A stretch of 64,000 nucleotides of DNA from a virus, in IMG/VR virus record IMGVR_UViG_3300028393_000019, positions 124,001 through 188,000 of that record; one strand, written 5' to 3'. Below are positions 25,534 through 52,442 of the stretch, piece after piece; within the stretch, counting starts at the first letter, position 1; every line of letters begins with the position of its first letter. The position numbers were made by a program, and so were the translations under genes. Under the pieces are notes generated by a model, which searched no databases, had not been told where the DNA came from, and worked only from the letters and a program-made list of their open reading frames with translations.

Positions 25534-25707
25534 ACTGTGACTAAGTATAAACATAGTGTTATTCCCCTGGTAACAGAGGATAACTATATATTGTCCCCGA
25601 AGGATTTTGGGACAAACAGCAGTAAGGCTAATTTTTACAGGAGAAATATACAGCCAATTTTTAATGATGGTACTAGCGATACCTCATCCAGCGTAAAGGA
25701 GAAAACA

Positions 25708-26238
25708 ATGATACGCATTATCAAAATAGTAATAAATGTGCTAGTCGTACTAGCCATTGCATCTGTAGCACAACAAGCAGTTTCAAGAAAGTTTGAACGT
25801 CTTGAACAGGCTCGCGAAACAGCAAGCCCAATTACAGCCAAAATGAGACAAACTCAATTAGATTGTCTGGCTCGTAACATATACCATGAAGCAGGCGGTG
25901 AACCTTTTGAAGGCAAAGTGGCCGTGGCTCAGGTAACAATCAACAGAACCGAAAGTGGTCAATTCCCTTCTGACATCTGTGGTGTAGTCTATCAAAAAAA
26001 TGTAGTCTACGAACGTGTACTTTGCCAGTTCAGCTGGTATTGTCAAGGTCCCAGTGCCATGAAACCAATGAACGGGCCTATATATACTGAAAGTATGGAA
26101 GTAGCCAAAAAGGTGCTACTAGAAGGATTCCGCTTGCCGGATTTAAAGAAAGCTCTATACTTTCATGGGGATTATGTACAACCCGGTTGGGGCAAGAAAC
26201 CAGTGGCCAAAATTGGCCGTCACATTTTTTATGATTAA
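25708..26238 (+). CDS. SleB/CwlJ-type cell-wall hydrolase (endolysin)
   Basis: 176 residues from ATG 25708, chosen for its AAAGGAG site; the frame is open back to a GTG at 25537. Residues 5-25 form a hydrophobic N-terminal helix (IKIVINVLVVLAIASVA) that could be a signal-anchor. The rest is Hydrolase_2: LARNIYHEAGGEPFEGKVAVAQVTINR with the catalytic Glu, then SWYCQGPS and HGDYVQPGW. It cuts peptidoglycan at lysis. A TTGTCCC/GGGACAA hairpin lies upstream at 25591-25615. Confidence 0.88.
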   Translation: MIRIIKIVINVLVVLAIASVAQQAVSRKFERLEQARETASPITAKMRQTQLDCLARNIYHEAGGEPFEGKVAVAQVTINRTESGQFPSDICGVVYQKNVVYERVLCQFSWYCQGPSAMKPMNGPIYTESMEVAKKVLLEGFRLPDLKKALYFHGDYVQPGWGKKPVAKIGRHIFYD

Positions 26239-30357: not shown

Positions 30358-32271
30358 ATGAGCAAAATCATCGGTATCGATTTAGGTACAACAAATAGCT
30401 GTGTGGCAATCCTGGAAAACGGAGTTGCCAAAGTAATTGAAAACAGCGAAGGTGCGAGAACAACACCATCAATCATTGCATATACCAAGGACGAGATCCT
30501 AGTAGGTGCAACAGCAAAACGACAAGCAGTCACAAACCCAAAGAATACAATCTACGCCAGCAAGCGCCTTATTGGTCGCAAGTTTGACGAGAAAGAAGTA
30601 CAAAAAGACATCGACTTGATGCCTTATTCAATTATCAAAGCTGACAACGGTGACGCTTGGATTGAAGCCAACGGCGAGAAACTTGCTCCACAGCAGGTGT
30701 CAGCTGAAGTGCTACGTAAAATGAAAAAGACAGCAGAAGACTATCTGGGTAAAGAAGTTACACAGGCAGTTATCACTGTGCCTGCTTACTTCAACGACAG
30801 CCAACGTCAAGCAACCAAAGACGCAGGACGTATCGCTGGACTAGAAGTTCTACGTATCATCAATGAGCCAACAGCGGCCGCATTGGCATATGGTGTAGAC
30901 AAGCAAGACAAGAAAGATCGTAAGATCGCTGTGTATGACTTGGGTGGTGGTACATTTGACATCTCCATTATTGAAATTGCCAACATTGACGGCGACAAGC
31001 AAATTGAAGTGTTGAGTACAAACGGTGACACATTCCTAGGTGGTGAAGACTTTGACCAAGTTCTTATGGATCATTTGGTAGCAGAGTTTAAGAAAGACAA
31101 TGGTATTGACCTAAAGCAAGACGTGCTGGCTTTACAGCGTTTGAAAGAGTCTGCTGAAAAGGCCAAGATTGAATTGTCTAGTGCCGCAAGTACAACTGTT
31201 AACTTGCCATACATCACAGCAGATGCCAGTGGTCCAAAGCACATGAATGTGACTATCAGCCGTGCCAAGTTTGAGCAAATGGTTGAGAAACTGATCGAGC
31301 GTTCAATTGAGCCATGTAAGATTGCTATGAATGATGCCAAAGTTACAGCCGTAGATATCGACGAAGTTATCCTAGTTGGCGGCCAAACACGTATGCCCAA
31401 AGTGCAAGAAGCAGTTGAGAAACTGTTTGGCAAGGCACCACGCAAAGATGTCAACCCAGACGAAGCAGTGGCCGCAGGTGCCGCAGTACAAGGCGCTGTT
31501 CTAGCAGGCGACAAGACAGACGTGCTGTTGTTGGACGTGACTCCATTGACATTGGGTATTGAAACAATGGGCGGAGTGTTTACCAAGCTGATCAGCAAAA
31601 ATACAACTATACCAACCAAACACTCACAAACATTCTCAACAGCAGAAGACAATCAACCAGCTGTGACAATCAAAGTTGCACAGGGCGAGCGTGAGTTGTT
31701 TAAGTATAATAAGATGCTAGGTGAGTTCAATCTAGAGGGTATTGACCCTGCACCACGCGGTATGCCACAGATTGAAGTCACACTAGATTTAGATGCAAAC
31801 GGTATCTTGAATGTAAGTGCCAAAAATAAAACCACTGGCAAAGAAAACAAGATAACTATCAAGTCTGATTCCGGACTAACTGAAGCTGAAATCCAACGTA
31901 TGGTTCGTGAAGCTGAAGAAAATGCCGAATCAGACAAGAAGGCAGCAGAATTGATCGGAGCACGTAATCAAGCTGAAGGTACTACACACAGTATCAAGAA
32001 AGACTATGAAACGTATAAAGATCAATTGACTGAGGAAGAAAGAACCAAATTTGACGAAGCAGTAAAAGCAGTGGAAACTGCTTGTGCTGGTGAAGACAAA
32101 GAGGCGATTGACAAATCAGTACAGACTTTCTTTGAAGCCGCTGGTCCGGTTATGACTAAAAAACAAGCCGCTGAATCAACGACAGACGAAACCCCAGCTC
32201 AAAGCCAATCAGCTCAAGAGCAAACGGTTGATGCTAGCTTCACAGAAGTTGACAAAGAAGAAAAGAAGTAA
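30358..32271 (+). CDS. dnaK: Hsp70 chaperone DnaK, full length
   Basis: 637 residues, the usual bacterial length. The ATPase domain is intact: [56 protein letters not shown]. The linker [19 protein letters not shown] and the substrate domain follow, then a short lid and tail ending EEKK. No DnaJ or GrpE is in the window, so host co-chaperones are needed. A GATAAATATT box and AAAGGAG site lie upstream. Likely roles: folding of virion proteins, or help to IscU. Confidence 0.97.
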
Positions 32272-32277
32272 TATAAT
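32249..32277 (+). promoter_or_regulatory. Consensus promoter TTGACA-17-TATAAT inside dnaK end
   Basis: Both hexamers exact; reads into hsp20-clpS-heme oxygenase-bilin reductase. Confidence 0.85.
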
Positions 32278-32282
32278 GTAAT

Positions 32283-32309
32283 TGTAGGACGCCTTCGGGG
32301 TCCTACACA
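32283..32309 (+). other. Hairpin with TTCG loop before hsp20
   Basis: GTAGGAC(G)CC-TTCG-GGGTCCTAC, one bulged G, no T-run. In the 5' leader of the hsp20 mRNA; could be a stabiliser, thermosensor-like element or weak terminator. Confidence 0.55.
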
Positions 32310-32336
32310 TTCTTGCTTAATATAAGGAGATTAAAA

Positions 32337-32768
32337 ATGGCAACAATGCAATTAAAAGCGGTGAGTCCAGCAGACTTCGCCAATCTAAGTAGAGCCTTAA
32401 TTGGCTTTGATCAAATCTTTAACCAAAGATTGCAACAAGCAAACAGTAACTATCCTCCACACAACATTGTGAAGTATAGTGACAGTGAATATGCTATTGA
32501 AGTAGCAGTGGCAGGTTTCAGCAAAGAAGAAATCACAGTAGAAGTTGACCAGGATCAATTGATTGTTCGTGGTGTTCAGGGTGAAGTAGTAACCGAAGGT
32601 AAGGAATACTTACATCGCGGACTAGCTAGCCGAAACTTCGAACAGACATGGACACTGGCTGAATACATGGAAGTTAAAGATGCCGAAGTCAAAGACGGTA
32701 TGTTGGTCATTCAAATTGACCGCATCATGCCAGAAGCACTGAAGCCTCGACAAATTGTAATTAAATAA
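32337..32768 (+). CDS. Small heat-shock protein (Hsp20/IbpA type)
   Basis: 143 residues from ATG 32337 (AAGGAG). NYPPHNIVKYSDSEYAIEVAVAGFSKEEI is the IbpA/alpha-crystallin start and RGLASRNFEQTWTLAEYMEV the conserved middle; the C-terminal I-x-I/V (QIVIK) is present. It holds unfolded proteins for DnaK. T4-like phages often carry one. First gene of a four-gene operon. Confidence 0.93.
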   Translation: MATMQLKAVSPADFANLSRALIGFDQIFNQRLQQANSNYPPHNIVKYSDSEYAIEVAVAGFSKEEITVEVDQDQLIVRGVQGEVVTEGKEYLHRGLASRNFEQTWTLAEYMEVKDAEVKDGMLVIQIDRIMPEALKPRQIVIK

Positions 32769-32773
32769 TCAAC

Positions 32774-32791
32774 GGGGGAGGAAACTCCCCC
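32774..32791 (+). other. Perfect GC-rich hairpin (GAAA loop) between hsp20 and clpS
   Basis: GGGGGAG-GAAA-CTCCCCC, 7 bp, followed by TCTTAATAG rather than a T-run, so more likely an mRNA processing/stability element than a terminator. Confidence 0.6.
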
Positions 32792-32811
32792 TCTTAATAG
32801 AAAGAGCTAGA

Positions 32812-33114
32812 ATGTCAAATACAGATGTAATGATCGATGAGAAGATCAAGATACGTGCTACCGAACCCCGACGTTGGAAAGTCATCTTGTTAAATGACGA
32901 TTCTACTCCTATGGAGTTTGTTATTGTTCTACTAGTAGATATATTCAAGCATACAGTTGACAGTGCCAAAGATGTCATGCTCCAAGTACACGAAACTGGC
33001 TCCGGCGTAGCTGGAATCTATAGTTTTGAAATAGCAGAAGCCAAAGCAGTTGAAGCTACCAATCAAAGTAGACAAGACGGCCATCCTCTGCAGATAAAGC
33101 TGGAGGAAGAATGA
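32812..33114 (+). CDS. clpS: ClpS adaptor for the ClpAP protease
   Basis: 100 residues. WKVILLNDDSTPMEFVIVLL carries the N-degron pocket (N-D-D and Met), and the family spacing to VMLQVHETGSGVAGIY is right. It would steer N-end-rule substrates, or host proteins, to ClpA. Its stop overlaps the heme oxygenase ATG (ATGA). Confidence 0.9.
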   Translation: MSNTDVMIDEKIKIRATEPRRWKVILLNDDSTPMEFVIVLLVDIFKHTVDSAKDVMLQVHETGSGVAGIYSFEIAEAKAVEATNQSRQDGHPLQIKLEEE

Positions 33115-33668
33115 GCCTTAGAGAATTGACCAAAGACGCACATACTAATGCAGAGCGTCAAGAATTTGTTAAAATACTGTTCAGTGGCAATATCAATCCC
33201 AAACTGTATGCAGTATTTTTAAAAAATCAACATCCGCAGTATGAAATAGTAGAAGTGTGTGCCATGATGCATCCTGGACTGCTGTCCGGCATGCCCGATG
33301 TTCGTCGTGCCCCCCATATTCTAGCAGACTATGAGGAACTGTGGGATGATGAAACAGACGGTAAACCGCACATTTTAAAAACCACAGATAACTATTGTAA
33401 ACATATCTTGAGTATCAAGGATGATCCTAAAAAACTGATGGCACATATATATGTGCGCCATATGGGAGATCTAGCAGGCGGGCAGATGATAGCTAAGAAA
33501 GTTCCAGGTGCTGGTCGAATGTATCAATTTGAAGATCCTGAAAAACTCAAAACAATGATACGTGAAAAAATCAGTGACGATATGGCTGACGAAGCTAAAC
33601 TGTGTTTTGACTTTGCTACAGAGACATTTAAAGAAATGTTGGAATTAGTCGAATACAAAGATGAGTAA
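33111..33668 (+). CDS. ho1: Heme oxygenase
   Basis: 185 residues. The proximal His is His11 (LTKDAHTNAER); the distal helix is YVRHMGDLAGGQMI (Gly-rich kink, Asp120), followed by VPGAGRMYQF. It opens heme to biliverdin, CO and iron using ferredoxin electrons. It overlaps clpS by 4 bases and the bilin reductase by 8, so the biliverdin maker and user are made together. The same family is known from cyanophages and from uncultured phages of non-photosynthetic hosts. Confidence 0.95.
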   Translation: MSLRELTKDAHTNAERQEFVKILFSGNINPKLYAVFLKNQHPQYEIVEVCAMMHPGLLSGMPDVRRAPHILADYEELWDDETDGKPHILKTTDNYCKHILSIKDDPKKLMAHIYVRHMGDLAGGQMIAKKVPGAGRMYQFEDPEKLKTMIREKISDDMADEAKLCFDFATETFKEMLELVEYKDE

Positions 33669-34341
33669 AGTTTGGGATACACTAATAGATATCCAACAAC
33701 TTTTAGAGGATAATTTTGAGCGCACTGGCACTGAAGTTTTCGAGCCTGGAATGGATCGTTTTAACCAACCTGGCTGGGTTAATAGGGTATGGACTAGTGA
33801 TCTCTATCGCCGTGCTCACGTTGATGTGGTTGACGCGAGAGATACTAAAGGCCTTTGGATGATGCACTGTTGCATCTTTCCACATACACATAATCCTGCT
33901 CCAATTTACGGCTTTGATGTCATAGCTGGCAAGAACAAGATAACTGGCTGTTTTCATGATTACTCTAAAGCAGGCGATGCTGACCATCCAATGATGCAAT
34001 GGTTTGCAGGAGAAGTAGCCAAACTGGAATGGCGCAAAGAACGTGCTTTACCTGAATGGGCTACTAATATATTCAGTAAAAGTATGGTAGCCGCGGGCAA
34101 TGTACAAGACGAAACAGAGCTAGAACAGATTACCGACCTAGCTAGAACTACAGTAGCACACTATCTGAGCACAGTAGCAGAAACTAACAATACTGCTGAA
34201 AACACTACAGAAGCACAAAATTACTATGCACAGAATCAAAAGTGTAACCCGCATACACCCCGTGTAATGGTCAGTTTAGGTCTAAGCGAAGAAGATGTTG
34301 AACATTTCATACAGGAATGCCTGTTCCCTGAAATAGTATAA
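33661..34341 (+). CDS. pcyX: Ferredoxin-dependent bilin reductase (PebS/PcyX group)
   Basis: 226 residues. PAPIYGFDVIAGKNKITG and CFHDYSKA at 80-103 match the FDBR core; Asp100 takes the place of the conserved catalytic Asp (D-x-S). The C-terminus NPHTPRVMVSLGLSE...FIQECLFPEI is also typical. FDBRs reduce biliverdin to phytobilins such as phycoerythrobilin. The 8-base overlap with heme oxygenase supports the role. Subgroup (PcyX versus PebS or PebA) cannot be settled by eye; the non-cyanobacterial context favours PcyX. Confidence 0.85.
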   Translation: MSKVWDTLIDIQQLLEDNFERTGTEVFEPGMDRFNQPGWVNRVWTSDLYRRAHVDVVDARDTKGLWMMHCCIFPHTHNPAPIYGFDVIAGKNKITGCFHDYSKAGDADHPMMQWFAGEVAKLEWRKERALPEWATNIFSKSMVAAGNVQDETELEQITDLARTTVAHYLSTVAETNNTAENTTEAQNYYAQNQKCNPHTPRVMVSLGLSEEDVEHFIQECLFPEIV

Positions 34342-34351: not shown

Positions 34352-35911
34352 ATGCGTGTAATTGACATTTTAAACGAATCTACTGATATTAATTCTGATT
34401 TGCAATCTATTATTCATTCTGTTGAAGATAATCCCGAAATAGCTCGTGAAGTTCTTCAGACGATTACTGATATGACAGATCAAATTGAGCAAGTCTTACA
34501 GACTGAACCAACGCCTGCAGTTAATCCCCAACTGCAACCCCAGCCCCAACAACAACCTGAACAAGAACTAGAACCTGAACTAGATCAAGAATATGATGAT
34601 GCAACAGACTCGTATCCAGGACAACCAAACGGCCCAGAACAACACCCAGAGCAACCTTTGTATGAAAATGACGATACTGCTATCTTAACACTTGAACAGG
34701 AATTAAACAAATTCAAAAAATACCATGACCTGCTGATTGCTCAAGGGTTGATTGATGACGCTAATGAATTTGCATCGGCCATAGCTAATTTAAAAAATGA
34801 AATAGACAGCAGAACAAATCCGGATGTTACTCGAGACGAAGTAGAAAAAAATATTACTGCTAGAGTAAAAAAACTTTCGCAACTGACCGATCTAAAGGTA
34901 AAAAAAGCTGTAGGTTCGGCATTGGCAACTGCATGGTTTAACGGTAAGGAACGTGGAATAGGCCATCAACTAATTTATCAATTTCTAGATGATTGTGCAG
35001 ATGACAGTACCAAGCCAATTGATTTACCTACTATAGTTGCCAATGGCGGCGATGGTACGTTGGTTCCTTCAAGCAGTCCATATTTTAATTTATTAATCGA
35101 TCTTGGTAAAATAAATCCCGGATCAGGAAACTCCGCATCTGGTCAAGGTGAATGGATGCTGGTGCTAGCGGGTAAAAATACTGAAAAGATCCATCCGGGA
35201 GACATTGGGATAGTAAGACCAGATGGACCATCTCTCAAAATCGAAGTAAAAGCATCTGATAGTCCTAAAGAAGATTATGCACAAAAAGGCGGTACAGGAG
35301 TTAGTGATTTTGTACTCAGTTGTGGGAAACTTGATGTACGCAAAGCAAAAGAGATAATGGAGTTCTGGACCAATGAGGTATTAGGACAGAGTCATGTAGT
35401 TCCTGCACTGGGCGATAAGAATATTTCAGCTCTTAATGAAACAGTCTTTATGCCAATGAATGCGAAAAGGGCTGGTAGTGTACAAAAAATGTTCAAAGAA
35501 ATGTATCTAGCTGTTGCACCAGAGCCCAGTATGCTTCAGTATATCAATAACATTGTAGAATCTATTCCTAAAAATGGCAAAATTGATTACAAAACAACCA
35601 GCGCACATGTGGCAGTACTGGCGGCTGCGCATTATCAATTAATTAACAAACACCAATCATTATTACTGTTAAATATTCCAACACTAAGTTACTCTGTTGT
35701 CAACGATCCAGCTACTATGCAGGATCTAATAGCTAGCTTAGAAGAAAATATAACTATTTCGTCTATAATTGATTTTAGACCAAACCCTAGCGCATTGGCA
35801 ACATTTAAAAAAATAATAGCCAAAGTTCCAAAAAAGAAAAAAACTGAATCAATTTCTGAACACAGACAAGCTCTTGCAGAAGTTGACAGTCTTCTCCGCA
35901 AACTATTTTAA
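34352..35911 (+). CDS. Nuclease-like virion cargo candidate (PD-(D/E)XK-like)
   Basis: 519 residues. N-terminus MRVIDILNESTD matches the capsid-targeting-like group, with L-N-E-S as possible protease site. A Gln/Pro/Glu-rich linker (about 48-105) follows, then a folded part. GEWMLVLAGKN ... HPGDIGIVRPDGPSLKIEVKAS at about 265-305 has the D...E-x-K layout of a PD-(D/E)XK nuclease. The last 200 residues are helical. A packaged nuclease is an inference from the two motifs together. Confidence 0.55.
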   Translation: MRVIDILNESTDINSDLQSIIHSVEDNPEIAREVLQTITDMTDQIEQVLQTEPTPAVNPQLQPQPQQQPEQELEPELDQEYDDATDSYPGQPNGPEQHPEQPLYENDDTAILTLEQELNKFKKYHDLLIAQGLIDDANEFASAIANLKNEIDSRTNPDVTRDEVEKNITARVKKLSQLTDLKVKKAVGSALATAWFNGKERGIGHQLIYQFLDDCADDSTKPIDLPTIVANGGDGTLVPSSSPYFNLLIDLGKINPGSGNSASGQGEWMLVLAGKNTEKIHPGDIGIVRPDGPSLKIEVKASDSPKEDYAQKGGTGVSDFVLSCGKLDVRKAKEIMEFWTNEVLGQSHVVPALGDKNISALNETVFMPMNAKRAGSVQKMFKEMYLAVAPEPSMLQYINNIVESIPKNGKIDYKTTSAHVAVLAAAHYQLINKHQSLLLLNIPTLSYSVVNDPATMQDLIASLEENITISSIIDFRPNPSALATFKKIIAKVPKKKKTESISEHRQALAEVDSLLRKLF

Positions 35912-36000: not shown

Positions 36001-36447
36001 ATGTCTAAATTGGCGATACTATTGCTATCCTTAATGCCTATTGTGTGTGTTTCTGCACCCATAGGCGACTATCAATTCAAAAGCCCTAGCTTTAACGGTG
36101 TAGGTTACAGTTCTCACGTGCTTACTATCGAAAATCAAGAATTCACTCGACAGGTACAAGTTAAGAAAGATATACAAGCCGCATTAGACAAAGCCAAAGC
36201 TGACGCGGCTAACACCAACATATCTAAGTTTCTAAACAACTTGGAAAGTCGTATCTATGCACAGATCAGTCAAAATTTAGCCACTGCCATGTTTGCCAAT
36301 GGCGGCACTAACAGCGGCACATTAAACTTTGAGGGTAATACTATATTCTGGTCAAAGGATGGCACGGCCGTAACAATGACAGTCACCGATGTCACTGGAA
36401 ATCAGACCACTGTAGTAATTCCTCTAAGTCAATTCCAATTCCAATAA
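36001..36447 (+). CDS. csgF: CsgF-like curli assembly factor
   Basis: 148 residues from ATG 36001. Signal peptide ends at VSA, and mature protein begins with a PIGDYQFKSPSFNG segment equivalent to the CsgF N-terminus that plugs into the CsgG pore. The rest (LESRIYAQISQNLATAMF, then VTDVTGNQTTVVIPL) fits the CsgF family. It is 1 base upstream of csgG. TTAAATAATAA lies upstream as a weak late-type box. Confidence 0.88.
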   Translation: MSKLAILLLSLMPIVCVSAPIGDYQFKSPSFNGVGYSSHVLTIENQEFTRQVQVKKDIQAALDKAKADAANTNISKFLNNLESRIYAQISQNLATAMFANGGTNSGTLNFEGNTIFWSKDGTAVTMTVTDVTGNQTTVVIPLSQFQFQ

Positions 36448-36448
36448 T

Positions 36449-37684
36449 ATGAAAAAGATTCTACTTGCACTTATTGTTGTGATGCTGAGTGGATGTGCAG
36501 TGATCCAAAGCACAGGGTTGACTGAAGTAGATCCCACATTGACAACTCAACGTGTTAATATCAAAAAAGAATTTGATAATATGCCTGCGCCAGCTAACGG
36601 CAAACCTGTCAGTGTTGCAGTTTATGGATTTACAGATAAAACAGGACAACGTAGACCACAACCAAATGTGGCCAGTTTGAGTACAGCAGTTACACAAGGC
36701 GCTGAAACATTCTTGATACAGGCCTTGCAAGGTGTTGGACAAGGTCGCTGGTTTGAAGTAGTGGAACGTGTGGGTATTGATAACCTCACTAAAGAACGTA
36801 CCATCATTAGACAGATGCGCGAAGCATACGAAGGTGCCAATGCCAAACCTTTGATGCCTATGCAATTTGCAGGTATAATCATGGAGGGCGGTATTGTAGG
36901 ATATGATGCTACATCTACCAGCGGCGGCGCTGGCATGCGTATATTTGGTATTGGCAAACAAACACAGTGGTCAACAGACACAGTGACCATTAGTTTACGT
37001 GCTGTCAGTGTCAATACAGGTAAGGTGTTAGCTGTGGTTACTGTACAAAAAACTATTTTATCAACAGCAGATAGTGCAACAGCATTGAAGTTCTTTGATC
37101 AGGGCACACAGGCATTTGAAGCAGAGATGGGTCTAACAATCAACGAGCCAGGAACCTATGCAGTCAAGGCCGCAACAGAGATGGCTGTAGTTGAGTTGAT
37201 CAAAGAAGGAGCAAGAAAAGGCATATGGGAATACAAGCCGGACACTCCGGTAGTTTTACCAGCACCTGTAGTTGAAAAGAAAGCTCCAGTAATCAGTAGC
37301 GAGATTAAGAAAGAAGTAGAGGAGAAGAAAGATGTCGTGGTTCAACCGCAGGCCGTGCCCGAAACAAAAACAGAAACCATACCCAGTGCCCCCGCAGAAG
37401 TAAAGGTTGAAGAAAAGAAAGCTGAAGTAAAGAAAGACAATGTCAAACCCAACGAAACAAAAATAGCACAAGATACTGCTAGATCGTTATTTGGCAAACG
37501 TAAATTGAAAGAAGATTCTTATTTGTATTCGGAGCAGGATTATACAAGCGTTAAGAAGTGGCAGTTCAAGAAAGGCACAGTGGTAGATGTAAGACAGCCT
37601 GGAAGTGAAGGCTGGTTTAGAGTAACAGACAGTGAATCAAGGGGCGGATGGATTCGTACAGAGCAGTTAGAGGAAGTAAAATAA
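36449..37684 (+). CDS. csgG: CsgG-like outer-membrane secretion pore with C-terminal SH3-like extension
   Basis: 411 residues; E. coli CsgG is 277. Lipobox LSGC at 13-16, then the CsgG core: VSVAVYGFTDKTGQ, RWFEVVERVGIDNLTKERTI, and the barrel region with SGGAGMRIFGIGKQTQW. After residue 270 there is a Lys/Glu/Val-rich linker of about 65 residues and a terminal SH3-like domain (about 350-411, WQFKKGTVVDVRQPG ... GWFRVTDSESRGGWI). The core makes a nonameric outer-membrane channel for curlin; the added domain may bind cell wall. The extension is unusual. Confidence 0.9.
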   Translation: MKKILLALIVVMLSGCAVIQSTGLTEVDPTLTTQRVNIKKEFDNMPAPANGKPVSVAVYGFTDKTGQRRPQPNVASLSTAVTQGAETFLIQALQGVGQGRWFEVVERVGIDNLTKERTIIRQMREAYEGANAKPLMPMQFAGIIMEGGIVGYDATSTSGGAGMRIFGIGKQTQWSTDTVTISLRAVSVNTGKVLAVVTVQKTILSTADSATALKFFDQGTQAFEAEMGLTINEPGTYAVKAATEMAVVELIKEGARKGIWEYKPDTPVVLPAPVVEKKAPVISSEIKKEVEEKKDVVVQPQAVPETKTETIPSAPAEVKVEEKKAEVKKDNVKPNETKIAQDTARSLFGKRKLKEDSYLYSEQDYTSVKKWQFKKGTVVDVRQPGSEGWFRVTDSESRGGWIRTEQLEEVK

Positions 37685-37906
37685 GGTGTTGTTTTTTTAA
37701 CAGTGTTGATTTTTTTACACCTTAGATGTAACGAAAAAATAACAGCAGTACTAAATTAAAGTCAACAATGTAGTAAATATTTTACAAAGGAAAAAGATGT
37801 AGCGAGAACAGTAGTACTAAAGGAACAGAGTTCCAAGGAGCGATGAGGGGATAAACTAAGCGTTTGTAAACAGTTACAAACAAGGTGTTCCAACCCAAAT
37901 CAAGTA
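37685..37906 (+). promoter_or_regulatory. Curlin leader: hairpins, late-type box and start-stop mini-ORFs
   Basis: No gene. AAGGTGT/ACACCTT pair around two T-runs (about 37683-37724); TAAATATT near 37774; AAAGG followed 7 bases later by ATG-TAG (37797-37802); AAGGAG next to ATG-AGG-GGA-TAA (37843-37854); perfect 8-bp hairpin GTTTGTAA/TTACAAAC at 37862-37881. Confidence 0.5.
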
Positions 37907-38830
37907 ATGATGATGAAAACATCAAGTTTAAAAGGCGCTGGTAAGTTGTCGCGAAAATTACTTACAATTCTTATGGTGTCTGCAATGCCACCATTGGGCT
38001 ATGCTGTTGACAACAGTATCTACATCGATCAGACGGGGAGTAATGCTGTGATTAATATTACTCAGGATGGTGCAGGTAATACAGTTAAAGCATTGACAAG
38101 CAACAGAACAGATGCGGCTATAATTAATGCCGATGGTGCTAATATTGCAATAACACAAGTTGGATCGGGCAACACAGTATCGTTAGGAGTATCGGCATCA
38201 GTAACAAGTGGTATATCTACCGATATTACATATTCTACAGGTACCAGTGGAGTAACCGGATCAACAGCCATATTCAATGTTAATGCAGGTGGTACTCAAT
38301 CAAATGCAAGCAAGACCAGTATTAATGTGTTACAAACTGGCAACAGCTCTAAATTTGAAGCCGATGTCACAGGTACGGGCAATAGTATAAGTGCTACCAC
38401 AGCAGGACCAAGTGACGATGTGTATTCTAAAATGCGTGGAAGCAGTAACACAGCCAATGTCAGTTTTAGCGGTACCGGCGGCTCAAACCAAGCAGTACTT
38501 GATCAATCAGGTAGCGGCAGTAATGCCATTGGAATCAATGCAAGTAGTACAGGTAACTATTTTGGTGTAACACAAGTTGGTAGTTTGAATACTGTTACAG
38601 TTGGCGGATACACATCCGGTGCGTTAGCAGGCGATGACAACACTGTGTTAATTCAACAAAATGGTACAAGTAACTTGGCTAATTTAGGAATTACAGGTGC
38701 TAGTAATAGTGTTAATATTAACCAAGGCGGCACCGGCCAAGATGCTAATGTAAAAATTAGCGGCGCAAGTAACACTGTTAACATTAGTCAAGGCGCTGGC
38801 AGTAATTTGTTAACTCCGCTATCTCGTTAA
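37907..38830 (+). CDS. Curlin-repeat protein (CsgA/CsgB-like)
   Basis: 307 residues. An N-terminal export region (about 1-33, ending near GYAV) is followed by repeated N-x(5)-Q-x-G-x-x-N-x(5) units: YIDQTGSNAVINITQDGAGN, IAITQVGSGNTVSL, INVLQTGNSS, VLDQSGSGSN, VTQVGSLNTV, IQQNGTSN, NINQGGTGQ, NISQGAGSN. These are curlin amyloid repeats. Three consecutive ATGs start the frame. The product should leave through CsgG and form fibres or coat the cell. Subunit versus nucleator cannot be decided. Confidence 0.85.
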   Translation: MMMKTSSLKGAGKLSRKLLTILMVSAMPPLGYAVDNSIYIDQTGSNAVINITQDGAGNTVKALTSNRTDAAIINADGANIAITQVGSGNTVSLGVSASVTSGISTDITYSTGTSGVTGSTAIFNVNAGGTQSNASKTSINVLQTGNSSKFEADVTGTGNSISATTAGPSDDVYSKMRGSSNTANVSFSGTGGSNQAVLDQSGSGSNAIGINASSTGNYFGVTQVGSLNTVTVGGYTSGALAGDDNTVLIQQNGTSNLANLGITGASNSVNINQGGTGQDANVKISGASNTVNISQGAGSNLLTPLSR

Positions 38831-38831
38831 C

Positions 38832-39956
38832 ATGGTTAAATTTTTAATAGGCGTTGTAGCTCTGTTAGCAATCTCACAGAGCTACGCGGCTATTGGCACC
38901 ATAACTGAACAAGTGAACGCGGCACCAACAGTAACACGCAAAACTCAAAATATAGTTGGAACCAAAGGCACTGGTATGGAGATGAACGATACTGTTCGCA
39001 CAACTCAGGGCAAGGTTGGGATAACATTCGAAGATCAGACCAAAGTACAAGTAAATGAAAACAGCAAACTAGTCATTGATGACTTTGTATACGATGCCAA
39101 GAAAGGCGCAGGTAAACTATCTCTTAATATGGCGTTGGGCACTGTGCGCTATGCATCAGGACAGATAGCCAAAAATAATCCGCAGAATGTGGGTATCACT
39201 ACACCAAGTGCCACTGTCAGTGTGCGTGGTACAGACTTTACTGCTACAGTAGATGAACTGGGTCGTAGTACATTTATTCTATTACCCAGCTGTCCCAGTG
39301 ATAGACTAACTCGTACTGTTAGCGATATTGAAACAAACTGCAAAGTTGGAGAGATTATTGTTGAAAGTGATGCTGGCCAAGTCGTATTAAATCAGGCGTT
39401 TCAAGCTACTAGAGTAGATAATAGAGGCACACCTCCTAGCCCGCCTGTCATATTAAAACTTAGCGAAGGTGCCATCAACAACATGATGATTGTTGCTCCT
39501 CCTAAAGAATTAAATCAAGATCAGCAAAAAACTAACACAAAATTTGAAATGAAAAATGCATTAGACATGAATTTTCTCAAAGAACAAGGGCTTGCTAATG
39601 TGTTGGATCAGCAACAGCAAGAAGTATACCAAGACAAACTAGCACGTAATTTCCTTGATCAGAACTTTCTTGCAAATATACTAGACATTATCGATAGTAT
39701 GATGAAGGCACAGATGAATTTATTAAATACTACAAGTAATAGATTACTTCCAGATTACAATGCTCTAACCGGGATTGTGGTAGACATACAAGAACCCAAG
39801 ATCACACTGAGCAGGGATGATGGCAGTAATGTGATGAGTGTAACTACTCCTACAAGTCAAAATACCACGATCTACATGACACAAGGTGCCATGGATACTA
39901 TTAAGAATAGAGTTAATAGCGGAGGCAGCACAGTTATAACGCTGATACAGAGATGA
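38832..39956 (+). CDS. Secreted FecR-domain protein
   Basis: 374 residues. Signal peptide (1-19, QSYA), then a FecR domain: TVRTTQGKVGITFEDQTKVQVNENSKLVIDDF and SATVSVRGTDFTATVD. The second half is helical and Gln/Asn-rich. FecR domains here lack the transmembrane sigma-regulator layout, so a periplasmic binding or scaffolding role is more likely. It starts 1 base after the curlin gene and overlaps the next ATG. Confidence 0.82.
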   Translation: MVKFLIGVVALLAISQSYAAIGTITEQVNAAPTVTRKTQNIVGTKGTGMEMNDTVRTTQGKVGITFEDQTKVQVNENSKLVIDDFVYDAKKGAGKLSLNMALGTVRYASGQIAKNNPQNVGITTPSATVSVRGTDFTATVDELGRSTFILLPSCPSDRLTRTVSDIETNCKVGEIIVESDAGQVVLNQAFQATRVDNRGTPPSPPVILKLSEGAINNMMIVAPPKELNQDQQKTNTKFEMKNALDMNFLKEQGLANVLDQQQQEVYQDKLARNFLDQNFLANILDIIDSMMKAQMNLLNTTSNRLLPDYNALTGIVVDIQEPKITLSRDDGSNVMSVTTPTSQNTTIYMTQGAMDTIKNRVNSGGSTVITLIQR

Positions 39957-40120
39957 TAAGACAATCAAATTCCAGTTACGTTGAATCGCAAAGACGCAGA
40001 CAAAAAGAAAAAGAAGCGATAGCTCGTGATAACTTAATCAAAGGTATGATAATAGCTCCTATATATTTGTTAGCTTGGTTTCCTATAGTGTGGATAATAT
40101 CTAAGGTATTTGGCAAATGA
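39953..40120 (+). CDS. Small single-helix membrane protein (55 aa)
   Basis: Basic N-terminus (SQRRRQKEKEAIAR) and one hydr­ophobic helix (MIIAPIYLLAWFPIVWII). ATG overlaps the FecR stop and its stop overlaps the next ATG, both ATGA, so it is part of the curli operon. Confidence 0.6.
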   Translation: MIRQSNSSYVESQRRRQKEKEAIARDNLIKGMIIAPIYLLAWFPIVWIISKVFGK

Positions 40121-40704
40121 AATTCTTAATAGTTGCGATAGTCATATCTATGGCCGGTTTGCAATGTTCAAACACTAAGGCTGCCGATAATACTATTATC
40201 ATCGATCAAATAGGTAGCGGCAACACGACTACAATAGTTCAAGATGGCAGTGGCAATACTGCCAGTGTAACAGCTGGATCTACTAGTGCTGTTGATTATA
40301 ATGTGTTTGCCATAACACAACAGGGTAATAATAAGACTGCAAGTATAGAACTAAAATCAGGAATTAATAACACATTTAATATACAACAAGATGGCACAGG
40401 TAATCATAATGCTAGTATACAAAACATGATCGGATCGGGTAATAATGTTACAGTAACACAGCAAGGCGCAGGCAATCATACTCTTACAGTTACCAATCCA
40501 AACAATGCTACTAACAATGGCAATACTGTAACAGCAACACAAACGGGCGGAACAGGCGCCGACAAAACATTCAATTTATATTTTAATGGTGCTACAGGTG
40601 CCGGTGTTACTATCAATCAAACTAATCCTACACAACCGGATCAAGCAGGTATGAACATACAATGCAATCCGTGTGGGTCAGGATGGAGCTATACTAAGTT
40701 TTAA
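40117..40704 (+). CDS. Second curlin-repeat protein
   Basis: 195 residues. Signal peptide to about 22 (TKAA), then curlin repeats IIIDQIGSGNTTTIVQDGSG, AITQQGNNKTASI, NIQQDGTGNHNAS, VTQQGAGNHTLTV, ATQTGGTG. A Cys pair (CNPC) near the end is odd for a curlin and may form a disulphide cap. Last gene of the cluster; a terminator follows at 40761. Confidence 0.83.
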   Translation: MKFLIVAIVISMAGLQCSNTKAADNTIIIDQIGSGNTTTIVQDGSGNTASVTAGSTSAVDYNVFAITQQGNNKTASIELKSGINNTFNIQQDGTGNHNASIQNMIGSGNNVTVTQQGAGNHTLTVTNPNNATNNGNTVTATQTGGTGADKTFNLYFNGATGAGVTINQTNPTQPDQAGMNIQCNPCGSGWSYTKF

Positions 40705-40760: not shown

Positions 40761-40782
40761 TGGACCATTTTGGTCCTTTTTT
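40761..40782 (+). terminator. Rho-independent terminator after curli cluster
   Basis: GGACC-ATTTT-GGTCC then six T. Confidence 0.85.
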
Positions 40783-43614: not shown

Positions 43615-45657
43615 ATGTTAAAGAAACTCATCCTAAGCCCGTGGACTGCACTGCTGACTCTAGTGTTGGTAGTGGGCATACGCATTGCAGATCCCTCATT
43701 TGTTGAAAGCGTACGACTACGCTATTTTGATACATTAATTGTAAACAAAGAACCAACATTTAATAATATTATCACGGTCAACATAGACGAAGCTAGTCTA
43801 GACAAATACGGCCAATGGCCACTACCAAGGGTTAACTATGCTGAAATTATTGAAGACCTTTATCATCGTAATGCTGGCCTTGTTGTGCTTAACGTGCTCA
43901 TGGCTGAGCGTGATCGTACTGGTGGAGATAGGGATCTGGCCTCCACTCTTAAACATTATCCGGTAATACTTCCTAGCGTTCCCAGTAATCAAACAAAGAA
44001 TACACCACGTGTTCCAGGCAGTGCTGTACTAGCACCAGAATGGTTAGATCAAATTGTTCAGTATCCTGGACTTGTTGCCAACATCTCAAGTTTAGAAAAT
44101 AGTGCGGCCGGTGTTGGTATTGTAAACACGCTACCAGAGATAGATGGTGTCAATCGTCGTATGCCTTTGATTGTGTCAGTTGACGGCAAACTTTATCCAT
44201 CAATGAGTTTAGAAACTCTGCGTGTGGCCGCAGGTGACACAACATTCCAAGTTAAGTTGTTTGAAGGTGGCGTTGAGAAAATGCGTATCCCCAAGTTTGG
44301 GCCTGTGACTACAGATAATCTGGGGCGTGTTTGGATTGATTGGAGTCAACAAAATCGTAGTTTTAGTTTGATTAACTTACCCAAAGATTTAGAAGGTGCT
44401 GTTGTTATAGTAGGACCTACAGCCGCAGGTATCGGTAATCCGTTACCAACTAGCAAAGGCGCAATATGGCCTCATGATGTACAAGCCGCTGTTATTGGCA
44501 CAATGATGAATGGAGTTGTTATACAACGGCCTGATTGGGCAGACGGTGCAGAAATATTGGGCTTATTGACCGCAGGTATTTTATTATTATTTTTAACAAG
44601 GTGGACTTATGTTGGTATTGGCGCAGGTGTTGTTATTATTGGCTCTATTATTCCTCTATGTGGACTCGCATATAGCAGTGGCTTACAACTCGTGGATGCG
44701 ACTGTTCCGGTCGGGGGCCTTGTTTTGGTTATGCTTCACGCTTATGGTGTTAAGTTTGTAAGTGAATACTTACAGAAACAAGCAATCAAGAAACAGTTTG
44801 CTGGCTATTGCAGTAAGGAAGTAGTCGAACTACTACAAAAAGATCCAGACTTGATCAAGCGTGGTGTACGTAAAGACGTAAGTGTCATGTTCAGTGATCT
44901 ACGTGGCTTTACTCCTATTGGTGAACATTACGGAGATGATGTTGCTGGCTTGGGCAAGTATATGAACGGATACATGGACAGCATTAGTCGTCCCATGCTA
45001 GATAATAATGGAATGATTATCAAGTACGTAGGCGATGCAAGTATGCACATACACGGTGCCCCTATTGAAGATCCTAATCACGCTAGAACAATAGTTGCTG
45101 TTGGACTTGAAATGCTAGACAAAGTAGACGAGTATACTAACATTATGGAAGCACAAGGATTGCCACCAGCCGCAATGGGTTGGGGTTGTAACTCAGGTAT
45201 TGGCTTTATCGGTGAGATGGGTTCAACAGAACGACACAGCTATGACATCTTGGGTGACATGGTTTCAACTGCGGCACGACTAGAAGCACGTTGTAAAGCA
45301 TATGGTGTATTGTGTATTATTGGTGCTGAAACATACAACCGTACTAAGGATGATTTCTTCTACTTGTATTTGGATAACTTACAACCAAAAGGTAAAACTG
45401 TAGCAGATGCTATCTATACAGCATTACGAACCAAAGGCAACGACTACAGTAAAGAACTTGCCACACACAATAAGATGCATATCCTGTACAAAGAAAAACA
45501 ATTTGATGCGGCTGCTATATTGTGTGGAGAATTGAAAGGCAAGTTTAGCGGACAAATGGACAAGTACTACAAAATGTGGATTGAACGCTGTGCGTTTATG
45601 AAACAGCAAGATCTAGGCGATGATTGGAACGGTGAGTTTATTGCTCACGAGAAATAA
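43615..45657 (+). CDS. CHASE2-domain class III adenylate cyclase
   Basis: 680 residues: an N-terminal membrane helix, a periplasmic CHASE2 sensor (about 30-310, ITVNIDEASLDKYGQWPLPR), three membrane helices (about 315-385), and a cyclase domain (about 415-590). The cyclase has both metal Asp (MFSDLRGFTPIG; KYVGDASM) and the adenine-type Lys/Asp pair (IIKYVGD; YDILGD). The usual transition-state Asn of V-N-x-A-x-R is Ser here (MVSTAARLE), Arg kept. It would make cAMP in response to an outside or envelope signal. 7 bases after agt. Confidence 0.9.
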   Translation: MLKKLILSPWTALLTLVLVVGIRIADPSFVESVRLRYFDTLIVNKEPTFNNIITVNIDEASLDKYGQWPLPRVNYAEIIEDLYHRNAGLVVLNVLMAERDRTGGDRDLASTLKHYPVILPSVPSNQTKNTPRVPGSAVLAPEWLDQIVQYPGLVANISSLENSAAGVGIVNTLPEIDGVNRRMPLIVSVDGKLYPSMSLETLRVAAGDTTFQVKLFEGGVEKMRIPKFGPVTTDNLGRVWIDWSQQNRSFSLINLPKDLEGAVVIVGPTAAGIGNPLPTSKGAIWPHDVQAAVIGTMMNGVVIQRPDWADGAEILGLLTAGILLLFLTRWTYVGIGAGVVIIGSIIPLCGLAYSSGLQLVDATVPVGGLVLVMLHAYGVKFVSEYLQKQAIKKQFAGYCSKEVVELLQKDPDLIKRGVRKDVSVMFSDLRGFTPIGEHYGDDVAGLGKYMNGYMDSISRPMLDNNGMIIKYVGDASMHIHGAPIEDPNHARTIVAVGLEMLDKVDEYTNIMEAQGLPPAAMGWGCNSGIGFIGEMGSTERHSYDILGDMVSTAARLEARCKAYGVLCIIGAETYNRTKDDFFYLYLDNLQPKGKTVADAIYTALRTKGNDYSKELATHNKMHILYKEKQFDAAAILCGELKGKFSGQMDKYYKMWIERCAFMKQQDLGDDWNGEFIAHEK

Positions 45658-48420: not shown

Positions 48421-48488
48421 CACAAGGTCGCGTAAAATCAGTCAAAGCTAGAGCCAAACGTGCAACTCGTAAAGCACGTAACAAGTAA
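48417..48488 (+). CDS. Arg/Lys-rich micro-protein (23 aa)
   Basis: MTQGRVKSVKARAKRATRKA plus RNK; protamine-like. Coupled to the preceding micro-gene and directly upstream of tmRNA. Translation is supported only by the ATGA overlap. Confidence 0.4.
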   Translation: MTQGRVKSVKARAKRATRKARNK

Positions 48489-48496
48489 TAGCAAAA

Positions 48497-48840
48497 GAAT
48501 TGTTGTACAAGCCTTAAAGTAAGGCATTCTGGACGCGGGTTCGACTCCCGCCAGGTCCACCATAAGCATATTAGGTCGTTGAGTTAAAAAGTCGCATGTG
48601 ATGCGCTCAGACTAAAATAGTATGCTTTTGATGGGCCTGCCATGGTTTCGACAGGGTGAGATAGGATAAAGGTCAACACGTGGGGTCACGTAAAATACAA
48701 ATAAAGTAAATGCAAAAGCAAATACATTCGAGTATTTCCAAGTTCCTGTAACATTAGCTACTGCTAATGATGCAGAATTTGCAATCGCAGCCTAAGAAAC
48801 TGCACTCGCGAGGTAGGACTTACCTTGTCATCAAAACAAC
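48497..48840 (+). ncRNA. ssrA: tmRNA, circularly permuted two-piece type
   Basis: The acceptor piece comes first: T-arm GCGGGTTCGACTCCCGC and a 3' end CAGGTCC-A-CCA ending at 48562. After a spacer of about 70 bases the coding piece starts at 48633 with GGGCCTG, which pairs with CAGGTCC, followed by the conserved CCATGGTTTCGACAGGG. The tag reading frame at 48757-48795 gives ATANDAEFAIAA and a TAA stop; the -AIAA end is a ClpXP-type degron. Piece order is that of alphaproteobacterial tmRNA. It frees stalled ribosomes and tags the products. Outer ends are approximate. Confidence 0.9.
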
Positions 48841-48846
48841 CAAAAA

Positions 48847-48868
48847 GGCACTTTCGAGTGCCTTTTTT
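48847..48868 (+). terminator. Rho-independent terminator after tmRNA
   Basis: GGCACT-TTCG-AGTGCC then six T. Confidence 0.88.
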
Positions 48869-48869
48869 A

Positions 48870-48898
48870 TTGACCAGTAAACAATTTGCATATATAAT
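48870..48898 (+). promoter_or_regulatory. Sigma70-type promoter TTGACC-17-TATAAT
   Basis: Directly after the tmRNA terminator, drives the outer-membrane protein. Confidence 0.75.
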
Positions 48899-48944
48899 AG
48901 GGTACTGTGTAAAAACAGTCATTTTAATTAAAAGGAAGTAAAAC

Positions 48945-49397
48945 ATGAAGAAAATTGCAATCGCAACCCTATTGGCCCTAGCGGCCGCAACAGCCAGTGC
49001 TGTAGAAGTTGGCGTCAACGGATCGTACGATTACGGTTCACCAACCCAACGTCCAGGTGCAGGTATCACAATCGGTCAGAAATATGACAAGTTTGGTGTC
49101 ACTGCTGGATTTGATCGTTACTCAAAAGGTACAGATCAAAACAAGTGGACACTGGTTGGTTCATATGATGTGTATTCAGTCGGTGCCGCAACGTTCGCAG
49201 TCAAAGCTGGTGCCGCATATTTGGACAACTATGGTAATGTTGCTGATGGTTATGCTGGTCTAGTTGGCACAGGTGTCAGCTATGCAGTTGCTAAGAATGT
49301 TGCATTGACAGCAGACTATCGCTATCAGTTCGGCCAGTCACGTGTTAACCAATTTGATGGCAACACAATTTCTACAGGCATCAAGGTCTCATTCTAA
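48945..49397 (+). CDS. Small outer-membrane beta-barrel protein
   Basis: 150 residues. Signal peptide MKKIAIATLLALAAATASA, then alternating strands with aromatic belts (GVTAGFDRYSK, KWTLVGSYDVYS, ALTADYRYQFGQS) and a terminal Phe (IKVSF) as BAM signal. The size fits an 8-strand barrel. It has its own promoter and terminator, so it is probably expressed early and independently. A phage-made surface protein could block superinfection; not shown by sequence. Confidence 0.8.
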   Translation: MKKIAIATLLALAAATASAVEVGVNGSYDYGSPTQRPGAGITIGQKYDKFGVTAGFDRYSKGTDQNKWTLVGSYDVYSVGAATFAVKAGAAYLDNYGNVADGYAGLVGTGVSYAVAKNVALTADYRYQFGQSRVNQFDGNTISTGIKVSF

Positions 49398-49420
49398 TTT
49401 TTAATTAGAAAAACATCAAG

Positions 49421-49440
49421 GGACCTTAGGGTCCTTTTTT
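49421..49440 (+). terminator. Rho-independent terminator
   Basis: GGACC-TTAG-GGTCC then six T. Confidence 0.85.
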
Positions 49441-49487
49441 GTTAATGGAAAATATTGTGGCGATTTTGCCACATTATCACTAGGTTC

Positions 49488-49516
49488 TTGACAAGTGATA
49501 TAAATACATATATAAT
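49488..49516 (+). promoter_or_regulatory. Consensus promoter TTGACA-17-TATAAT
   Basis: Both hexamers exact. It is followed at 49550-49571 by a perfect 8-bp hairpin TTTGTTGT/ACAACAAA. Confidence 0.85.
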
Positions 49517-49587
49517 AGAAGCTGTGTTAGAGATGCTTCGTTAAAAAAGTTTGTTGTCCAAAAACAACAAAAAGATTTACAAAGTAG

Positions 49588-49616
49588 TTGACAACAACGT
49601 CGAGAGGCGTTATAAT
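49588..49616 (+). promoter_or_regulatory. Second consensus promoter TTGACA-17-TATAAT
   Basis: Exact; 100 bases after the first, same direction. Confidence 0.85.
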
Positions 49617-49675
49617 TAACACATGAACTAGCAATTCCGCTAGTAAAAACAAAAAGGTTTAAAAGAGAAAACAAA

Positions 49676-49825
49676 ATGCAATCTTGCAATAGACATCATC
49701 AGTTTAATACGATGCCCAAACAGGTAGGCGTTATAGCCTCTTATTGGTCAGCGATTAACGGCGGAAGTCTGTCATTAGATCGTACACCAGAGATTACAAG
49801 GGTCCGGGAGGGCTGGGATGACTAG
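49676..49825 (+). CDS. Small protein (49 aa) behind tandem promoters
   Basis: MQSCNRHHQFNTMPKQVG then SYWSAINGGSLSLDR and a charged end. Two exact early promoters upstream and a terminator downstream make it a monocistronic, probably highly and early expressed gene, typical of a host-takeover peptide. No family recognised. Confidence 0.5.
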   Translation: MQSCNRHHQFNTMPKQVGVIASYWSAINGGSLSLDRTPEITRVREGWDD

Positions 49826-49858
49826 GTAACAACTTAGAAACATTTCAAAACTTCAAGG

Positions 49859-49887
49859 ACCCTAGGATTAAAACCCTGGGGTTTTTT
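49859..49887 (+). terminator. Rho-independent terminator
   Basis: ACCCTAGG/CCTGGGGT (one G-U) then six T. Confidence 0.8.
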
Positions 49888-49905
49888 GTTTTTAGGAAAG
49901 GAAAA

Positions 49906-50082
49906 ATGGAACAGATAGATTACGAAAAATTAAATCAACGCATTGTTGAACAGGCTTATGAAACTGCTTTTGGTCCTACATTGGATAAAGAACAGCTTCA
50001 AAAACTTATTCAAGATAAGTTTGAACGTGCTAGAAAATATCACGAAGCGTTAGCGAAAGCACCGACGTTCAGTGTAAACTAG
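49906..50082 (+). CDS. Small helical protein (58 aa)
   Basis: AAAGGA upstream. MEQIDYEKLNQRIVEQAYE, then KEQLQKLIQDKFERARKYHE; all helical. Unknown function. Confidence 0.5.
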   Translation: MEQIDYEKLNQRIVEQAYETAFGPTLDKEQLQKLIQDKFERARKYHEALAKAPTFSVN

Positions 50083-50283
50083 TACAACGTGTGAAGATAC
50101 CAGTAACGAGGACTGGGCCCTGCACGTAAAACATGGGGCGAACGGGCGGCCTATCGGATGGAACTCCTCTTCTGGAGCTAAAAATGGTAGCGTATCGAAG
50201 CATTCTCGGGCCGATAGAGGCAAGTGGGTTCATCCATGTAGAATGCTTCGATACACACTTTCCAACACTACCTGAAATAGTGC
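50083..50283 (+). repeat. Gene-free stretch with perfect 15-bp inverted repeat
   Basis: GTATCGAAGCATTCT at 50192-50206 and its exact complement at 50240-50254, loop 33 bases. No open frame of note. Probably a structured RNA or processing signal just before the tRNA promoter. Confidence 0.6.
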
Positions 50284-50312
50284 TTGACATAGTCAACGGA
50301 GAGTGTTAAAAT
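50284..50312 (+). promoter_or_regulatory. Promoter TTGACA-17-TAAAAT for tRNA cluster
   Basis: The -10 ends 8 bases before tRNA-Tyr, so the transcript begins at or beside the tRNA 5' end. Confidence 0.75.
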
Positions 50313-50320
50313 TAAAATCT

Positions 50321-50409
50321 GGAAGTGTGCGCTGAATTGGTTGAAGGCAACGGACTGTAAATCCGCCACATAAGAAACATTGTTGGTTCGAATCCAACCA
50401 CTTCCACCA
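50321..50409 (+). tRNA. tRNA-Tyr (GTA)
   Basis: Class II with long variable arm; acceptor GGAAGTG/CACTTCC, anticodon GTA, CCA encoded. Confidence 0.93.
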
Positions 50410-50414
50410 AATTT

Positions 50415-50489
50415 GGTCCTGTCATATAGTGGTTATTATACCGGCCTGTCTAGTCGGATATCGGGGTTCGATTCCCCGCAGGATCGCCA
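50415..50489 (+). tRNA. tRNA-Asp (GTC)
   Basis: Acceptor GGTCCTG/CAGGATC, anticodon GTC, T-arm GGGGTTCGATTCCCC, CCA encoded. Confidence 0.93.
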
Positions 50490-50497
50490 AGTATATT

Positions 50498-50574
50498 CGG
50501 AGTGTAGCGCAGTCTGGTAGCGCACCTGGTTTGGGACCAGGGGGTCCAAGGTTCGAATCCTTGTACTCCGACCA
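50498..50574 (+). tRNA. tRNA-Pro (TGG)
   Basis: Acceptor CGGAGTG/TACTCCG, anticodon TGG, CCA encoded. Confidence 0.93.
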
Positions 50575-50581
50575 ATTTTAT

Positions 50582-50656
50582 GCACGGTTCGTCTATCGGT
50601 TAGGACACTGGCCTTTCACGTCAGTAAGACGGGTTCGATTCCCGTACCGTGTACCA
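50582..50656 (+). tRNA. tRNA-Glu (TTC)
   Basis: Acceptor GCACGGT/ACCGTGT, anticodon TTC, CCA encoded. Confidence 0.92.
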
Positions 50657-50850
50657 AGAACGTTCCGCTTTGTTAGCGGATACTGTGACCCGCAGGATGG
50701 GAAGTGAGGTGACTCTCAAGGGTGGTTCTAGTCTTACCGAACTAGCGTTAGCAACACGATAGCGGTCCCTGTCGGGAAGCGGGTGGAGGGCATGCGTGAT
50801 GGACCTAGTCCTGATGTGCTATAATTACCGCCGAGGGATGTCAGAGCTTT
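50657..50850 (+). ncRNA. Gene-free structured stretch between tRNAs
   Basis: 194 bases without an open frame. Hairpins TCCGCT/AGCGGA near 50666, CTAGT/ACTAG near 50730, TCCC/GGGA near 50766, and a long-range ACCCGC/GCGGGT pair spanning about 100 bases. No known RNA recognised. Confidence 0.4.
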
Positions 50851-50925
50851 TCCTCTTGTAGTTAAATGGTATAACAGTCGGCTGATAACCGGCCATTACA
50901 AGTTCGATTCTTGTCGAGAGGACCA
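50851..50925 (+). tRNA. tRNA-Ile (GAT)
   Basis: Acceptor TCCTCTT/GAGAGGA, anticodon stem GTCGG..CCGGC with GAT, CCA encoded. Confidence 0.88.
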
Positions 50926-50953
50926 ATTTTTAACAAAGAACAAAGGAAATGTT

Positions 50954-51331: not shown

Positions 51332-51381
51332 TTTTATAAAAGGAGATCTGTCATGACCAGTGACAAGAGTGATAAGATGAT

Positions 51382-51456
51382 GGGGGTATAACTTAACGGC
51401 TAAAGTAGCGGGCTTTTAACCCGTAAATCAGAGTTCGATTCTCTGTGCCCCTACCA
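51382..51456 (+). tRNA. tRNA-Lys (TTT)
   Basis: Anticodon stem GCGGG..CCCGT with TTT, T-arm CAGAGTTCGATTCTCTG, CCA encoded; acceptor begins with a G-T pair. Confidence 0.9.
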
Positions 51457-51467
51457 TATAAAAACAT

Positions 51468-51540: not shown

Positions 51541-51571
51541 GTTTCTATATGGTATTACTTGTAGATAAATC

Positions 51572-52435: not shown

Positions 52436-52442
52436 AGTAAAA

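Follow-up and report, generated by a model that had tools for sequence, protein, structure and literature searches.

Does a phage that encodes the curli pore proteins CsgF and CsgG also export fibers from the cell it infects? The question is raised by a stretch of 64,000 nucleotides (bases 124001 to 188000 of the 265,680-base IMG/VR record IMGVR_UViG_3300028393_000019), referred to here as the window, in which a run of six open reading frames (ORFs) on the + strand (window positions 36001 to 40704) encodes CsgF, CsgG, a first curlin-repeat protein (CurA), a FecR-domain protein, a small membrane protein, and a second curlin-repeat protein (CurB). The locus is probably a phage-borne type VIII secretion module that lets the infected cell export amyloid, with the FecR protein and a CHASE2-adenylate cyclase encoded further downstream reporting the state of the envelope or fibers as cyclic AMP (cAMP). 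The composition of the run had been recognized in a first-pass annotation, and the ORFs and Pfam agree with it, the small protein being identified by its ORF only. The Pfam matches of CsgF, CsgG, both curlins, and FecR all exceed the curated cutoffs.

The csgG gene (36449 to 37684, + strand) encodes a 411-residue predicted outer-membrane lipoprotein pore of the CsgG family, with a match to PF03783 (E=1.4e-46), the lipobox LSGC, and an alignment of residues 1 to 263 with the solved Escherichia coli CsgG in a Protein Data Bank (PDB) search (E~1e-46). Its C-terminal part consists of a charged linker and a bacterial SH3-like domain. SH3_4 was found in seven of the nine CsgGs of the clade that were scanned (best E=3.4e-9), with the match of the window CsgG itself (3.2e-4) under the Pfam cutoff, and CsgG length is 366 to 442 residues in most loci of the clade, compared with mostly 256 to 302 in other phages. 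Immediately upstream, csgF (36001 to 36447, + strand) encodes a 148-residue predicted secreted protein with a signal peptide, matches to PF10614 (E=5.6e-13) and phrog_35372 (E=5.6e-58), and the CsgG-docking aromatic motif YQFKSPSFNG; a PDB search with CsgF gave no significant match. In E. coli, mutations of CsgF residues F24, F26, and F31 disrupt docking to CsgG, and a single Phe-to-Ser change at each abolished complementation (PMC10133297). When positions were matched to E. coli by eye, 57 of 58 distinct CsgF ORFs proved to retain the counterparts of both F26 and F31; at the F24 position, 43 have Y, F, or W, and 14 have H. The motif xxF..P.F.G as a whole is likewise present in 57 of the 58, the exception being an ORF that starts inside the protein.

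The two candidate fiber subunits, CurA (307 residues; 37907 to 38830, + strand) and CurB (195 residues; 40117 to 40704, + strand), both match the curlin-repeat family PF07012 (E=7.3e-9 and 5.5e-10, respectively) and have signal-peptide-like N termini, as judged by eye. Each contains four QxGxxN motifs, a number equaled in none of 10,000 composition shuffles (means of 0.19 for CurA and 0.26 for CurB). An alignment of 37 sequences sharing 22 to 84% identity with the window CurA has 29 conserved columns, of which 22 hold Q, G, or N (odds ratio 10, p=4e-8); in this alignment, conservation of the predicted fiber subunit falls on the curlin Q/G/N ladder. The AlphaFold2 model of CurA is an all-beta repeat protein (predicted local distance difference test [pLDDT] of 82; predicted template modeling score of 0.79), and its best matches in a library of viral folds are phage proteins named 'Curlin associated' (E=3.1e-7). 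A PDB search with CurB found the curlin repeat protein of entry 8c50 (E=1.3e-11). The C-terminal tail of CurB, CNPCGSGWSYTKF, carries a Cys pair and is invariant in all aligned relatives, which is unusual for a curlin.

Scans of viral contigs retrieved 10 loci with the FecR query and 62 with a CsgG alignment as the query. Counts were made over the 54 loci with distinct CsgG, each item being scored only where the flank sufficed, and as these loci are related, the counts do not represent independent events. CsgF was present in 53 of 53 loci, FecR in 47 of 47, and a curlin-motif ORF in 46 of 47; a cyclase ORF was found in 27 of 29, and in the remaining two, tblastn detected a cyclase where the locus ends. 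The curli-type export apparatus, including amyloid-type subunits, that was described in the first-pass annotation is supported, and fiber export is the best reading on the predicted proteins. The conserved curlin ladder and CsgF motif are what would be expected of a phage that produces fibers and whose CsgF acts on CsgG. Selection appears to have kept both the fiber repeats and the docking motif, which argues for real fiber export over a bare pore, and export of fibers through the pore is considered likely.

The cyclase gene (43615 to 45657, + strand), three genes downstream of curB, encodes a 680-residue protein with a CHASE2 domain (PF05226, E=1e-37) and an adenylate cyclase domain (PF00211, E=1.2e-13), and a search of the record for the class III cyclase family gave a match within it (44872 to 45366). 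Because every relative whose downstream sequence exceeds 8.5 kb has a cyclase, the CHASE2-adenylate cyclase is, by gene content, part of the curli module and its predicted signaling member. In L004, L006, and L007 of the surveyed loci, it lies immediately 3' of the second curlin gene. In the window, this interval is occupied by genes for a metallophosphoesterase, a RimK-type ATP-grasp protein, and a glycosyltransferase, which look like insertions, since only some relatives have them. The cyclase keeps the metal-binding motifs FSDLRGFT and KYVGDASM as well as the transition-state Arg of class III cyclases.

The product of fecR (38832 to 39956, + strand) is a 374-residue predicted secreted FecR-domain protein (PF04773, E=3.6e-11; phrog_37870, E=1e-134) and a probable periplasmic sensor. 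Its structural model (pLDDT of 73, with a disordered middle) matches the periplasmic cell-surface signaling domain of the anti-sigma regulator PupR (PDB entry 6ovk; probability 1.00, E=1.2e-4). Another match, to a cell-surface anchoring domain (5ix9; probability 1.00), was given no weight; sequence searches with both ends of FecR failed to recover 5ix9. In seven loci (L077, L078, L079, L080, L081, L082, and L083), the stop of fecR overlaps the start of the cyclase gene, with no second curlin gene between them, which is an expectation for partners. In a biofilm-regulating operon of Burkholderia, FecR-domain and CHASE2 proteins are also encoded side by side (PMC5192318). From this pairing and the PupR-like predicted fold of FecR, we infer that FecR signals to CHASE2, and the pair may point to signaling from the envelope to cAMP in infected cells, a so far unstudied route.

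In the proposed mechanism, CsgG would form a lipidated outer-membrane pore with CsgF docked on its outer face, and CurA and CurB would exit through CsgG and assemble into amyloid-type fibers on the infected cell. The periplasmic FecR protein would sense the condition of the envelope or of the export process and relay it to the CHASE2 domain of the cyclase, and the cAMP of the infected cell would respond to this signal. The likeliest use would be remodeling of the infected-cell surface, which could aggregate or retain host cells and progeny or could mask receptors. For this module, we infer secretion, amyloid assembly, contact between FecR and CHASE2, cAMP output, and a benefit to the phage from its predicted parts.

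Several observations weigh against this reading. Compared with solved structures in the PDB, CurA gave weak generic beta-helix matches alone and nothing specific. The constriction residue F56 of E. coli CsgG aligns with Leu in most of the clade. The cyclases of the clade have Ser at the Asn of the VN.A.R motif (Asn in others), so cyclase activity is not assured. No cyclic-nucleotide-binding domain was found in the record, and any reader of cAMP would therefore be the host's. In addition, no clumping was seen in cultures of cells infected with phage Melnitz (PMC9004378). Finally, CsgE (PF10627), the periplasmic gate that stimulates curli secretion, was not found in the record by a search that detected the E. 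coli positive control, which leaves the gating of the pore unexplained. CsgE is also absent from the curli modules of SAR11 phages (PMC9599517) and is not essential for curli in bacteria (PMC9599517, PMC7029224); as published phage modules lack it too, its absence is no bar to membership. The description of the set as 'nearly complete' in the first-pass annotation thus calls for qualification: CsgE was not found, and the adjacent adenylate cyclase was missed.

Among the alternatives, a block of superinfection, in which the exported fibers or a FecR/CsgG complex would coat or alter the outer membrane and bar adsorption of related phages, is unlikely. It suits a surface-remodeling module on a large lytic phage, and surface-changing genes of pelagimyophages have been discussed in this sense (PMC7029224); however, no known exclusion protein is found among the parts by Pfam and PHROG matches, there is no direct evidence for it, and amyloid export would be a costly means to this end. 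Equally unlikely is a closed circuit found in phages only and going beyond fiber export, in which FecR would replace CsgE at CsgG and report the state of export or envelope through the CHASE2 cyclase as cAMP, and a host cAMP receptor would reprogram the cell together with the chaperone and bilin genes neighboring the module.

A somewhat less probable alternative is that CsgG and CsgF now serve as a gated pore controlling when lysis or leakage occurs, with fiber export incidental or lost. Such an idea was put forward for Methylophilales phage Melnitz, which was stated to be without csgA/csgB and for which a pinholin- or secretin-like pore was proposed (PMC9004378), and both the CsgG constriction residues unlike those of E. 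coli and the lack of a CsgE gate in the record would fit it. However, that argument relied on missing csgA/csgB, yet the GenBank record of Melnitz includes annotations for two curlin-repeat proteins as well as for FecR and a cyclase. The near-constant presence of curlin genes in the surveyed loci and the constraint on the curlin ladder and the CsgF docking motif also count against it, and the phage has a separate endolysin gene (25537 to 26238). A pore for lysis only, one of the roles suggested in the first-pass annotation, is disfavored by the conservation of the fiber repeats and docking motif across divergent phages. It is very improbable that the curlin-repeat proteins are tail fibers or capsid decorations and the likeness to CsgF/CsgG incidental: repeat-rich beta proteins are common in phage tail fibers, and generic beta-helix phage proteins occur among the weak CurA fold matches, but CurA and CurB have signal-peptide-like starts, curlin genes lie beside those for CsgG and CsgF in almost all relatives, and the best CurA fold matches are curlin-associated proteins.

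Apart from the main components, the module contains a small protein (39953 to 40120, + strand) of 55 residues, a predicted single-pass membrane protein whose gene overlaps fecR and curB and which had no family match in a Pfam scan; homologs were seen at this position in L004 and L005 and, in L010, after CurB. Between csgG and curA is a noncoding gap of 222 bases (37685 to 37906, + strand) without an ORF, which is possibly a regulatory stretch and because of which the run may or may not form a single transcript. An Rfam scan gave no match in this gap and no riboswitch or other RNA near the operon, the sole match being a transfer-messenger RNA (tmRNA) further on. The run had also been described as closed by a terminator. 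A terminator-like hairpin followed by T6 does exist downstream of curB (GGACCATTTTGGTCC-TTTTTT; 40762 to 40776, + strand), but such sites occur in the region at the chance level (10 found versus 10.2 expected in shuffles), and the module continues to the cyclase. The T4-type late promoter TATAAATA likewise occurs at a frequency at the chance level.

Directly upstream of the module, genes for DnaK, Hsp20, ClpS, heme oxygenase, and a PcyA/PcyX-type bilin reductase stand in a row (30358 to 34341), in an order kept in most relatives of the clade; heme oxygenase and ClpS also accompany the bilin reductase in 34 of 34 distinct loci. Phage hemO-pcyA/X cassettes are already known (PMC11480375), and no literature linking them to curli genes was found. 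The gene between the bilin reductase gene and csgF (34352 to 35911) is hypervariable: its product is 32% identical to that of L010, and other relatives encode proteins of similar size without detectable similarity at this position. In L112, L114, and L115, which are of the pelagiphage type, csgF is preceded by two similar membrane proteins of ~95 residues (GFPIA..), which are absent from this place in the window.

The source of the locus is a large tailed phage, since genes for a terminase large subunit (~52% identical to those of Pseudomonas phages PA5oct and Paride), a T4-like helicase, a single-stranded DNA-binding protein, virion proteins, and ribonucleotide reductase co-occur in the record, which bears out the phage nature of the DNA assumed in the first-pass annotation. 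A permuted tmRNA of betaproteobacterial type adjoins 28 arrayed tRNA genes, which together serve most amino acids (48450 to 57130). A methanotroph host was considered via pmoC, but the AmoC search gave no match and its control gave none either, which makes the search uninformative.

Among 385 genomes searched, five alphaproteobacterial ones with csgF contain csgF-csgG and curlin-motif ORFs, with neither FecR nor a cyclase near these loci. In the CsgG tree, all phage-type sequences grouped together with 100/99 support, and the five alphaproteobacterial sequences fell outside on long branches, which allow no conclusion on the donor. A bacterial origin by nearest genome was rejected; the only close GTDB matches (G001 to G003) were set aside, as phage-like genes lie beside the locus, and from their translations, examined by eye, they are probably misbinned phage contigs. 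Contigs L091, L092, L093, and L112 to L115, in GTDB species bins labeled Rhodobacteraceae, Sphingobacteriales, and Saprospirales, look like misbinned phage contigs.

CsgF and CsgG were previously reported in SAR11 myophages, for which 'sibling capture' was suggested (PMC7029224), and a complete set with FecR and adenylate cyclase was described in 2022 in SAR11 phages of both phage families (PMC9599517). Curlin genes are thus present in marine phages with CsgF/CsgG, as the annotations of Pelagibacter phage HTVC008M and Melnitz also show, and the expectation of the first-pass annotation that amyloid subunits set the present locus apart from them was not borne out. The type VIII modules of SAR11 phages (HTVC023P-type Podoviridae and Myoviridae) have the order CsgF-CsgG-curlin-FecR-curlin-cyclase without CsgE (PMC9599517), and the same order was found in the window, with the cyclase three genes further down. 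In contrast to these modules, that of the window lies in a phage with a 265-kb record and a terminase resembling those of PA5oct and Paride, its CsgG has the SH3-like extension, three genes split curB and the cyclase gene, and the small membrane protein gene stands between fecR and curB. One or two histidine kinase genes precede the Podoviridae set, whereas no HATPase_c domain was found in the window record, where a short diverged kinase could escape detection; the published kinases were called short and diverged and were not described as characteristic of the Myoviridae modules (PMC9599517). HTVC008M and Melnitz share the gene order and have CsgGs that are ~43 to 45% identical to that of the window, but these are short (278 to 280 residues), their terminases are just 34% identical to that of the window phage, and none of the bilin or chaperone genes occur in their examined flanks.

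The module resembles bacterial curli operons (csgBAC/csgDEFG) in its CsgG pore, CsgF, and curlin-repeat subunits and differs from them by the addition of FecR and the CHASE2 cyclase and by CsgE, which was searched for and not found. With the Burkholderia BiofilmReg operon, it shares a secreted FecR-domain protein beside a CHASE2 sensor, with a link to biofilm control; in that operon, however, CHASE2 belongs to a histidine kinase, and a curli pore plays no part (PMC5192318). Searches of the literature, in which subscription papers are poorly covered, found neither a curli module in phages of the PA5oct-related lineage nor a CHASE2 domain named in phage curli modules. Added here are the CHASE2 domain on the cyclase, the SH3-like C-terminal extension of most CsgGs of the clade, the retention of the CsgF docking motif, the curlin ladder, and the absence of FecR and cyclase beside the five alphaproteobacterial csgFG loci. 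By its predicted gene content, the locus belongs with the type VIII (curli) secretion systems of phages, with variant features and in a lineage with a PA5oct-related terminase. A complete phage curli module, so far described from SAR11 phages of the ocean, thus appears to be widespread in another lineage of large phages, with its gene order kept.

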